Below, one piece after another: positions 46,062 to 53,877 of a DNA stretch of 64,000 nucleotides. Positions within the stretch are counted from its first letter, which is position 1, and every line of letters begins with the position of its first letter. The stretch is taken from positions 918,931 through 982,930 of the forward strand of contig NC_087386.1 in NCBI RefSeq assembly GCF_963675165.1. Direction: 5' to 3'. A model generated the notes under the pieces. The model ran no database searches. It was not told the origin of the DNA and saw nothing but the letters and a program-made list of their open reading frames with translations. Both the position numbers and the translations under genes were made by a program. Origin of the DNA: Halichondria panicea (taxonomy: Eukaryota > Porifera > Demospongiae > Suberitida > Halichondriidae).

Positions 46062-49000
46062 CTAGAACTTAAGAATGAAATCGTCCTTATTCTTTCTCAT
46101 TTTCTTTGAGAGATTCTGAAGAGAAGTATTCTTAGTTAACTCATCAGCTGGTGGTCTCTCAGCAGGGTTTTCTGCCAGCAATAACTTCACAATTTTCGCA
46201 ACATTGGGAAGGTTATCCTCAAATTTGAGAGGGAATTCCAGATTGCGCAGAGCTGATAGCACCTGTACAGCCATGTGTGTGTATAGTGGGGATGAGTGAG
46301 ACAGTTTAGTAGAAGTACGAACATAGAAGAATACGAACATAATCAGACCAAGTGAAAAAAATGAAATTGCTACAGCTATATACATGTACTAGCTAGCTGT
46401 ACCTGGTATCTGGCCTCCATGATGTAGTGAAGCTCAAACAAGATGATACCTAGAGCAAACATGTCTGACTTCTCATCACACTTTTTCCCTTTGATTTGCT
46501 CAGGGCTCATGTACAGGAGAGTCCCAGCCTGCATGCTGCCTCTAGAGTGGCCATCAGCTGAACCATGGGTAGTATCTGCACCTGTAGGGGCTGAATACCA
46601 AATAGAGATTCAGCACAGGTTGCACTGCACCATACAGTATTGTCTGTTTATAGCTACAGCTATGCTATTGCAACATCCATGGATTATACTGTGATTACAG
46701 CACCAAAATGTGATGTGACCTGATTATACACCAACTTCGGCTATTGGTTTACGAACCTCCAAGTGGCATGGCCACTGTTCTTGCTAACCCAAAATCTCCA
46801 ATTTTTAAATTGCCCTCACTCCGAGAAAAAAATATGTTAGATGGTTTCAGGTCCCTATGTACAAAGCCCTCCTTGTGAATGTACACCAGTGCTTTAAGGA
46901 TCTGTATGGTAATACATTCATAGAGTAAGGCAACTAGCTACTGCATGCAAATGTAAGTGCCCAAACCTGTTTGAAGAAGCTTAGAACTTCAGTTTTATTT
47001 CGGCTCTTTTCTTCACAGTTTTTTAACAGCCAGTTGCTCAATGTGTCCTTCTTACAGAGCTCTGTCTGAATAAACAGGCAGGTTGGAGGATCAAGTGGAA
47101 GGGACGATTGGATCGACGATTGGATCGTAGCAGTTTCTAATATCTCGAACTGAGAGCGGCCAGATGGGGAGCCAGCACTATCACTGTAAAATAAAAAGCA
47201 GACAATCGATGAGAACATTACTCAATTGTTAAATTACCGAAACGAGACTACTGAGCCAGAACTGTGAGAGGTAGGTCCAAAAGCACCTTGCGAGAAGTCA
47301 GCAGAGGCAACATGTGTACTGGTGGGAGAACTTGTTGCACGGGTGGAGCTGGAAGTTGTGGACGTCAGCCCAGAAGCAACTTGCAAGAGGTCAGTAGAGA
47401 CAACATGTGCGCTAGTGGAGGTGTTTGTTGTATGGGTAGAGCTGGAAGTTGTGGACGTAGACCCCCTTGCAGTTGTTACTGGGATCAGCGGGGTTGGCCT
47501 GGAGAAGAGATAGTATATACGACATCTTAGAGCTAACTATATATGGGCTGGAATACTCACAGTGAATCAGTACTCTTTAGCAAAGACCACAATTCTTTCT
47601 CTGCCCACTTGTCCGGAGCTCTCTCTTTCCATGATGTGTGGTAGCGTACAATATGGGCGTGTTCCAGCTTAGCTAAGGCCATAACCTCTCTCAGCACCTT
47701 GTCTTGCTTCTTAGGGCTATAAGGATCGAGGAAAAAGCTGGTAAAAGGCACGTGTTACATTTGACATAGACACATTTGATTCTCTATGTCATCTATGCCT
47801 TTTAATAGTTCAGCCAAAATTTCACTCACATGTCAGAGAGCCTGATTATCTTCAGTGCATATTCACTCTGATCCATAATATACTTCACATGGAACACCAC
47901 ACCAAAGCCTCCCTTGCCAATCGGTGGGTACTTCACCTCATACTCGTCCAATCTGTATAATAGGTGGAGGACGTACTGATCAAGCCATCAAGTAATAGAT
48001 GACAAAAAAATTGTCCTAGATTTGCATTTTTACCTGCTGCAATACTGCTTTACTGCAGTGGAGCCTCGAAAACTATCCACGTTACGCCCTATGAACGAAG
48101 CTATTAAGCAAAATGTTTGCCGGGTAACTCCCTCAAAATAAGAAAGTTGTGTTTCCTCGAGACATCATCTCTTTCATCAAATTTATAACGCATGAGCCAC
48201 GTGTAAGCGTGCTGGTTATGACTACTACAATAGGTATAGACCTTGAAGTACAAGTGAGTTGCACGGACTAAGCACAGTTACTTGTAGTTTATTATGCACT
48301 GTGTGTAGAAATTATTGTGATGGCCAGGCGTAGCGCGGATGTTACTCGAGGGTACTTTCGTTTCTAATCCCTTCCAATCTATGGTTGAACCTACCTTGAG
48401 GTGACATATTTTTGCGGGTACTAATTTATGCTATTTCTGCGAATGAGAGTAAAATTGCAAAAATGCTAAAGAAACACTCGAAATATCATAACTAGAGAGC
48501 GGAATTAGCAGAATTTAATACCAGCAAAATGCACAAGCCGCTAACAATAACAATGCTGATAATAGCCTAGGAAAGGCCATGAATAACATCAGTAATAATC
48601 TTAGTCAATTAAGATTTCATAGTTTATACAACAGCATGACTTGTGGTTGGACCAGAGGAAATCCGACATGTGTGCACGAATCACTACAACTTCAGTGCAG
48701 TGTGACCTGGACGTTATCACGTGACCGCAATGACATGAATGCACTGAACTTGTAGTGATGTGTGCACGCATGTCGAACCTCCTCTGAGGTCGCCTACTAT
48801 GGTTTTAAGTGAATGAAATCTTGATGTACATTTTAAACTCTAGTGTTCGCTCACCTGCTAGCAACCGTTACTCTAGTACCACTGATACTCTAAAGAGATA
48901 GATAAACATTAAACAACAATTATAGCGACATATTTGTTCACCTGCGTACTTGTGGAAGATGAAGAACGTCGAATAACATTGTCTGCATGTGTAAATAATC

Positions 49001-52000: not shown

Positions 52001-53877
52001 AGATTCCTGCTTCCCGCTGCTGGAAACCCATGTTGTAATTTCTGCTCCTCTTGGGCTTCAAAGCCAATATACAGCCTGTCTTCAGTATGGCTGTAGTTGT
52101 CTCGAAGGATATCAGCTTTACAGATCTTTACTTGGTCGAGGTTGTGGATATAAATCGAGCCTTGACTGGCTTGTGTTGCATATGCAACTTGGTCTCCATT
52201 GATGTCTTCCAGGTAGCCATAGCGACAATATTGAACATCGGATGGTCGTCTCAGAGCTGATGGTTCAGTTCCATTCCGATAGAGAAATATATCATACTCT
52301 CCATTGCATCTGTGGGAGTGGTCAAACAATGACGATGTGTATGACAATTATGTCTAAACACTTTTCAACTTACTTTTCATCAAGCACCCTCTGATGCTCC
52401 TTTTCCTCCAGTTTGAGCAGTTCAATAAACTTGCTCTTATAGTTCTCCGTAGATAGGGGGGCATGTACTACGTCTGGAATTCGAACATCCTGAGGCTCAC
52501 TGGCTGGAGAATGTAGGTGAGGCTGGACATACTTGGGGTTGGGGGGTGACGACATTTGGGGCTTACTACCAGAATGAGCAACCTGTCGAAAAATCGCCCT
52601 GCCATTATACATGTGTACAGAATATTTAAAGTATATTTGCATTGAGTTTGGCCCCGGAAGTTATGTGGTCTATTATGGCTTCATTTATGCTTTATTTGGT
52701 GGACAAGTATGCCTGGGACTTCTACATGGAAAATGCTAACATTTAGCTGGTTGGCTCTACAGCATATAGATAGAAGCGCTTTTTAATAAGGAATCCAATG
52801 GTATATGAAACTTTGAAGTATGATAAAGTTATGACAACTTTATGAAGGCCAAACTCAACACAAATAGACTTTAGTCATACACTGTAATGGTCATGGGGGG
52901 TGGGACTCACGGGAGGGGGTCGAGGCGGTACTTGTTGAGGAAAACCAGTAGCAGGCCTGTTTTTGATATTGTGGGATGGAGACACACGTATTTGTCGCTG
53001 AGCTTCAACAGTTCTTTGTTGCTGAATTGGTTGATTGTGCGTTATAAATTGTGACTGATGCAAATATTCTTGTACCTTAGGAGTTGTTGGAGTTGATACT
53101 TTACGCTCTTGTTGATAGTCACCACCCACTGATTCAGAATGAGTTGAGCTTTCAGAATGCGACCGACTCTCACTCCTGGAACGTGGATAACCTCTCCCTT
53201 GAGACTGCTGCTGTGGGCTGACTTGGCGCCTGAAACGGGAGGGTGGTTTCTTTGCCCACGTGGCTTGTGCGGGCGATAAGCCGGAAACAGCAGAAGTTGG
53301 CGTGTTGACAACTACATATGAAAAGGGGTTATCAGCAGTACATGTACCTGATAAAACTCAGGGTTTCATCCAATGGGGGGGGGGGGGGGGGGGGGGCAGA
53401 GGTTAAGTGCTTAACTCAACTACAAACAGTTTCATTTTCCAATTAAAGGTCTTTGTGATTATATTTTGCCAAGCCGTTAGCACTCACAAAGTTCAATACT
53501 CCTAAATAATACGTACATCTACATGTATATAACTCACTTCCAATCTTGCTGCCACTTAACTGGGCATTCCAAGCCTTCTGCTCTGCCTTGCCGTGTGCAT
53601 ACGTACACTCGTCCCCTTGATAACACGATCTGTCCGCATTCTTACATAAGATAAACCCTTTCCCTGGGGGTAACTTCTTTGGCAATGGTCTGATTTTTTC
53701 CAGCATATCCTTATCATTGACTGCTACATGAATTAGATCTTTTACCGTGGAGGATTTGTGAGATGGTGAGCACTGGCACTGTGTGGTCAGGAGTTTTGTG
53801 TTCCAGGGCATGACTTCAAAACTATCCTTACAGACCAAACCATAGAAAGGTGCTTGTTTTGATCTTCTACGAGCCAT
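46062..53877 (-). CDS. CCCH zinc finger-SF1 helicase-eIF2alpha-type kinase fusion, copy A
   Basis: Sixteen exons, all joined in frame by GT-AG introns; about 1,400 residues. Exon 1 (53538-53877) has a CCCH finger at Cys78, Cys85, Cys91, His95. A Ser/Arg/Gln-rich linker follows. The HELZ/HELZ2-like region ([19 protein letters not shown]) leads into a UPF1-type helicase: Walker [47 protein letters not shown] and [18 protein letters not shown]. After [10 protein letters not shown] two tiny exons (48942-48982, 41 nt; 48855-48889, 35 nt) lead into a kinase: [37 protein letters not shown], a Ser/Thr-rich insert, [36 protein letters not shown] and [10 protein letters not shown]. The β4-β5 insert and the ELC-K-TL and [10 protein letters not shown] motifs are typical of eIF2alpha kinases (PKR/GCN2/PERK). 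All catalytic residues are present. Likely role: RNA-triggered translation control (inference). Confidence 0.85.
47240..47502 (-). repeat. Internal coding duplication in the kinase insert of copy A
   Basis: Two in-frame units of about 96 bp encode [20 protein letters not shown] and [20 protein letters not shown]. Copy B (59240-59425) has only one unit. Confidence 0.85.
48611..48822. mobile_element. Hairpin MITE-like inverted repeat in a helicase-kinase intron
   Basis: Left arm ccgacatgtgtgcacga and cactacaacttcagtgca pair with the right arm tgcactgaacttgtagtg and tgtgtgcacgcatgtcg. Outer parts (aagatttcat / atgaaatctt) extend it to about 210 bp. Absent from copy B. The rest of this 900-bp intron (47954-48610) has no recognisable content. 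Confidence 0.75.
49580..49877. repeat. Short interspersed repeat, copy 2
   Basis: About 90% like 28525-28815. It starts near tatacctcgcttgcgcatg and ends acgcctcgaggcata, so the ends are loosely inverted. In a helicase-kinase intron of copy A. Confidence 0.8.
50940..51174. repeat. Short interspersed repeat, diverged copy 3
   Basis: Shares cataactcgagaa, aaatccaagaaaagaagcct, agacacagacacac and the end cttgcgcatgc...accgaggcata with the other two copies. In the next intron of the same gene. Confidence 0.65.

Follow-up and report, generated by a model that had tools for sequence, protein, structure and literature searches.

Does a single gene of the sponge Halichondria panicea join an RNA helicase to a protein kinase of the eIF2alpha-kinase type? 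The question was raised by a stretch of 64,000 nucleotides (nt), here called the window (positions 918931-982930 of NC_087386.1, contig C10), in which the original prediction described a CCCH finger, a UPF1/HELZ2-type helicase and a complete kinase read through sixteen minus-strand exons in one frame. The locus was compared with the whole genome (131 Mb, 39 contigs). It probably represents a tandemly duplicated nuclear gene composed of the front half of HELZ2, a serine-rich linker and a PERK-type kinase, with a putative role in RNA-triggered kinase signalling.

The exon reading was confirmed by splice-aware protein-to-genome alignment. The gene in the window, copy A, runs on the minus strand from an ATG at 53877 to a stop codon at 46064-46062 in 16 GT-AG exons and a single frame. 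The coding length is 4293 nt, corresponding to a protein of 1431 amino acids, and an in-frame TAG is located two codons 5' of the ATG. The alignment, whose query was the hand reading, verifies splice sites and frame and is not independent of that reading; independent support for the model comes from the other tandem copies. Junctions predicted near 49080, 48982, 48889 and 47953 were correct within about 10 bases (donor after 49070, exons at 48982-48942 and 48889-48855, kinase from 47952). The Pfam search proposed as a check on the spliced protein recovered Pkinase (4.2e-44) as well as AAA_12 (4.4e-19) and AAA_11 (7.2e-15), the UPF1-like helicase pair, and the same three domains were found in the spliced model of copy B. 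The features are given below in window positions; exons 1-7 and 10-16 are taken from the splice model, with further evidence in brackets.

Exon 1, 53538..53877, minus strand: start ATG and N-terminal module with the C-x6-C-x5-C-x3-H (CCCH-like) finger (six-copy alignment)
Exon 2, 52881..53311, minus strand: Ser/Arg/Gln/Pro-rich spacer
Exon 3, 52374..52582, minus strand: spacer and start of the helicase region
Exon 4, 51277..52309, minus strand: first RecA part of the helicase, motifs GPSGSGKT and DEGAQ (AAA_11)
Exon 5, 50160..50588, minus strand: second RecA part of the helicase (AAA_12)
Exon 6, 49984..50071, minus strand: helicase, 88 nt (88 nt in five of five copies)
Exon 7, 49070..49477, minus strand: C-terminal helicase motifs ([13 protein letters not shown]) and acidic/proline tail
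Exon 8, 48942..48982, minus strand: joining exon LKa, 41 nt (41 nt in each of A-D)
Exon 9, 48855..48889, minus strand: joining exon LKb, 35 nt (35/35/35/38 nt in A/B/C/D)
Imperfect inverted repeat with 47-nt arms, 48653..48786, no strand: within the enlarged intron preceding the kinase
Exon 10, 47830..47952, minus strand: kinase start, glycine loop GKGGFGVV and beta-3 Lys (alignment)
Exon 11, 47561..47716, minus strand: kinase N-lobe (alignment)
Exon 12, 47238..47498, minus strand: low-complexity Ser/Thr kinase insert
Exon 13, 46967..47183, minus strand: end of the insert and [13 protein letters not shown] (alignment)
Exon 14, 46757..46901, minus strand: catalytic loop HRDLKPSN and DFG (alignment)
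Exon 15, 46403..46581, minus strand: activation segment [10 protein letters not shown] and shortened alphaG (YIMEARYQ) (alignment)
Exon 16, 46062..46262, minus strand: kinase C-terminus and stop TAG
Tandem copy B, in-window part, 58109..64000, minus strand: contig model 985282 to 977042, stop just after

Copy A belongs to a tandem array, which the original prediction had not noticed. Its main helicase exon matched nine places in the genome: C10 has five, C3 two, and C5 and C17 one each. The five C10 copies (A-E) are each followed by kinase exons on the same strand; in B-E, none of them entirely inside the window, the main helicase exon is 75-89% identical to that of A. Two kinase sets without a helicase were also found on C10, namely F at 998046-996285, which may be connected to finger exons lying upstream of it, and the degenerate-looking G at 1223143-1221060. 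Further kinase fragments are located at 994-995 kb of C10 and on C1.

The prediction that helicase and kinase form one gene is supported by this array. The same two tiny exons, LKa and LKb, connect the helicase to the kinase in four of the five copies (A-D), with phases 1, 0 and then 2 at the kinase in all four. Over the six A-D pairs the gap columns numbered 0 in LKa and 9 in LKb, compared to 154 and 38 in the neighbouring introns, and all 9 come from one whole codon inserted in D. Helicase and kinase core are under purifying selection. The ratio of nonsynonymous to synonymous substitution rates (dN/dS) was 0.25-0.40 in helicase exons H1-H3 for each of the ten A-E pairs. In the kinase core it was 0.27-0.38 for each of the six A-D pairs, a range leaving out pairs with E, because the E model is wrong there, and including a second kinase exon of D that ended at a wrong donor. 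The conserved in-frame joining exons, the indel pattern and the purifying selection on both parts make two separate genes unlikely, and the comparison strongly favours one gene encoding one protein. The intron before the kinase measures 902 nt in A versus 115-125 nt in B-D, and the inverted repeat within it may be an insertion resembling a miniature inverted-repeat transposable element.

A likely origin of the helicase part was found among the other four helicase matches, which sit at three loci on C3, C5 and C17. An RNB domain is present at all three, and the C3 locus also gave OB_HELZ2, 0.1 bit under the cut-off; on this basis the three were taken to be HELZ2 loci. HELZ2 is described in the available text of PMC9839780 as two helicases around an RNB domain. 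The best helicase match outside the array, 34% identical, is located on C3, immediately ahead of the RNB-bearing helicase and in the same orientation; the two may form one gene. At two of the three HELZ2 loci, C5 and C17, a related finger module precedes the helicase by about 1 kb. Among the 136 kinase matches listed, from a search that scores best candidates only, none was near these loci, and Pfam detected neither an RNB nuclease nor a second helicase in the 1431-residue protein. Since the HELZ2 loci carry RNB and have no listed kinase nearby, the fusion appears to combine the HELZ2 front half with a kinase that replaces the nuclease half. It shares with HELZ2 a CCCH-like module followed by a superfamily 1 (SF1) helicase and differs from it in that the kinase stands where HELZ2 has the RNB nuclease and second helicase. 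UPF1 was the best solved-structure match of the helicase (9e-12, or 2.2e-14 with a three-copy profile); the SF1B helicase is common to both proteins, whereas their N- and C-terminal parts differ. The helicase type of the original prediction could thus be narrowed to HELZ2, of which the front half is present, without RNB. In a sponge study, two HELZ2-annotated genes showed lower expression after symbiont exposure, according to the available text (PMC11229196).

The kinase was found to belong with PERK. A search against solved structures gave PERK at 1.1e-62, GCN2 at 1.4e-44, HRI at 2.6e-40 and PKR at 5.9e-39, the first other kinase being NEK1 at 2.5e-23. Within the best 60 of 746 structure matches, the first 19 consisted of 17 named EIF2AK, GCN2 or PKR and two with generic names, which were taken as GCN2. 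In a kinase tree (n=13, without HRI and PKR, two outgroup branches long, rooted for drawing only) the six array kinases formed one group (100/98) beside the PERK of the sponge itself and human PERK. This side of the tree was set apart from yeast GCN2 (99/99), and the grouping with the EIF2AKs stood at 100/99 against four other kinases. A phylogeny placing the kinase outside the eIF2alpha kinases had been named as grounds for rejecting the prediction; instead, the array kinases grouped with the EIF2AKs rather than with other kinases. A PKR origin was considered and rejected, PERK being closer by structure-match score and the tree position lying beside PERK. Judged by its sequence, the kinase is therefore PERK-type rather than PKR-type and a member of the eIF2alpha-kinase clade by descent. 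The predicted class stands in its clade and its intact catalytic residues, with PERK and not PKR as the closest relative. The position and phase of the intron 3' of exon 13 are probably common to the array kinases and the sponge PERK; the likeness is only probable because the PERK query was joined there by visual judgement, and the same stretch could also be read through as coding sequence. A yeast GCN2 query of the genome returned the sponge PERK first and no clear GCN2 gene.

PERK has a luminal domain and a transmembrane part. The fusion has PERK as its closest kinase by sequence and tree and differs from it in the shortened alphaG and in its N-terminal part, which consists of finger and helicase and gave no Pfam match at E 0.01 to an endoplasmic reticulum-luminal domain or transmembrane segment. 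PKR and PKZ, each made up of a nucleic-acid-binding front part and a kinase, offer a working analogy, as the fusion likewise combines such a front with an eIF2alpha-clade kinase. It differs from them in that neither a PKR-type double-stranded RNA-binding domain nor Z-alpha was found in the Pfam results for the 1431-residue protein (E 0.01), and the PKR kinase is more distant than that of PERK.

Several observations weigh against a functional fusion of this kind. The support for one gene is comparative and not transcript evidence. Base identity was 0.74 in LKa and 0.81 in LKb compared to 0.71 and 0.71 in the introns beside them, which places LKa barely above the introns, and the linker residues give no sign of constraint (dN/dS 0.69-3.28; 26 codons, among A-D). 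The predicted CCCH finger kept its Cys and His residues unchanged across the six-copy alignment, F having a shorter first spacing, but its score fell under the Pfam cut-offs (zf-CCCH_2, E 0.066 in A; at best zf-CCCH_4, E 0.013 in E). Copy D has a stop codon within exon 2. In copy E the catalytic Lys is replaced by Arg and DFG by GFG, the catalytic loop reads HRDLN, and the linker is different. The front exons of B and C model poorly, and A is the one copy with neither visible damage nor gaps in its model. The comparative nature of the evidence would leave room for a HELZ2-like helicase gene next to a PERK-like kinase gene, the pair having been duplicated as a unit but being transcribed apart. 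Such an arrangement would fit the kinase set F, which has no helicase, the in-frame Met before the glycine loop in B and D, and the one AATAAA and one ATTAAA in the joining stretch of A. It fits poorly with in-frame joining exons kept in four of five copies, with a joining stretch of just 307-348 nt in B, C and D (about 1.6 kb in E) and with a reading of linker plus first kinase exon in which, for A and C, no Met precedes the glycine loop. Neither AATAAA nor ATTAAA occurs between helicase and kinase in B-E, which is weak evidence because such a signal lies within 400 nt of only one of the five predicted gene ends; as a test of the gene boundary, the poly(A) signal was not discriminating. After comparison with the other copies, two genes were judged improbable. 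That the array consists mostly of decaying duplicates without function is highly improbable. The stop in D, the loss of catalytic Lys and DFG Asp in E and the degenerate appearance of G would agree with decay, and the same two losses make E a likely pseudokinase. Decay is made less likely by dN/dS well below 1 in H1-H3 and kinase core in all six A-D pairs, and by the reading frame of copy A, which is open throughout.

Further points concern the substrate of the kinase. The catalytic residues (glycine loop, beta-3 Lys, HRD and DFG) are intact in A-D (4/4). The position of PKR Thr487, placed by matching the residue numbers in the available text of PMC11556786 to the PKR sequence, carries Ala in A-C as well as in F, and Thr in D, E, both PERKs, GCN2 and PKR. 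In alphaG, the eIF2alpha-docking element, three residues are missing in A-D, whereas the sponge PERK keeps PFSTQMER; the alphaG region of F is net one residue shorter with a Thr nearby, in an ambiguous alignment. The docking element with Thr at PKR 487, which would mark an eIF2alpha kinase, was thus not recovered. In the PKR scan, as far as its available text goes, Thr487 is among the few highly constrained sites and stabilises alphaG, inducing the change in eIF2alpha needed for phosphorylation, and alphaG is extended by one turn in eIF2alpha kinases (PMC11556786). Given this constraint, the Ala and the alphaG loss, we place A-C among the eIF2alpha kinases by descent and not by function. It is doubtful that eIF2alpha is the substrate of A-C, and the direct coupling to translation arrest put forward in the original prediction is doubtful for the same two reasons. 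An explanation could be that the fusion is real and its kinase no longer acts on eIF2alpha, acting instead on another substrate or mainly on itself, with signalling as the output and not translation arrest. This is possible, though we would not expect it: copy D retains the Thr, GT..YMSPEQ, LFIQTELC and the rest of the kinase retain eIF2alpha-kinase character, and alphaG is otherwise malleable in the available text of the same PKR study (PMC11556786).

RNA-triggered kinase signalling by a HELZ2-PERK fusion is our best guess. The CCCH-like finger and the first SF1 helicase would bind a class of RNA, for example viral or transposon RNA. Binding would cluster the protein, so that kinase domains could pair and activate one another, and the active kinase would phosphorylate eIF2alpha or another substrate, leading to a stress or antiviral response. 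Along with RNA binding, clustering and activation, we infer a single mRNA, a cytoplasmic location and an antiviral role.

Other features were noted in and around the array. The finger exon is repeated, with about five matches in copy B (C10 984.1-985.3 kb) and six between copies D and E (1010.0-1014.9 kb). Exon 2 of copy A is identical to that of D in 133 of 140 aligned residues, compared to 32/141 for B and 34/131 for E. Recent gene conversion is suggested by the synonymous rate (dS) between A and D, 0.03 over exons 1-3 compared to 0.24 over the helicase. The fused gene is flanked by two near-identical coiled-coil frames (window 43724-45841 and 55418-57457, plus strand; 99% over 300 nt), and a third was traced by eye on the reverse strand near C10 995.6 kb; the coiled-coil gene seems to belong to the duplicated unit. 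A run of 200 N is located at window 55039-55238. Two 720-residue frames with kinase domains at window 22928-25090 and 32760-34922 (plus strand), 99% alike over 300 nt, form a separate tandem duplication with 9.8 kb spacing. Upstream of the degenerate kinase G, frames at C10 1224455-1223778 contain by eye a 2A-like DVETNPGP and a death-domain-like part, and gave no Pfam match. Elsewhere, two of five sampled cathepsin-like places (C2 667840-667985 and C6 200170-200320) have Ser for the active Cys, a hallmark of silicatein, and lend modest support to a sponge origin.

The original prediction knew of no described protein with this architecture, and none was found among the open-access papers listed, a library without most subscription papers; it may already be present, unremarked, in public annotation. 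Scans with two peptide patterns per database, which would catch close relatives only, gave 103 hits in GTDB contigs and 62 in IMG/VR, and no hit was confirmed as a relative. In vertebrates, each of the four eIF2alpha kinases links a single sensor to a kinase type that all four share. A HELZ2 front on a PERK-type kinase would, if true, be another sensor type for kinases of this clade. We tentatively consider a fifth kind of sensor kinase, an RNA-sensing HELZ2-PERK chimera forming a tandem immune sensor family, with varying finger-exon number, a pseudokinase as possible decoy or regulator and a substrate shifted off eIF2alpha. The fusion would place in one polypeptide, on an early animal branch, two activities that are separate in vertebrates, and if the predicted activity is confirmed it would be a new link from RNA recognition to stress response. 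Its kinase activity would then be a simple readout of the poorly known RNA preference of HELZ2, and the change in alphaG offers a testable case of a stress kinase drifting from its classic substrate.

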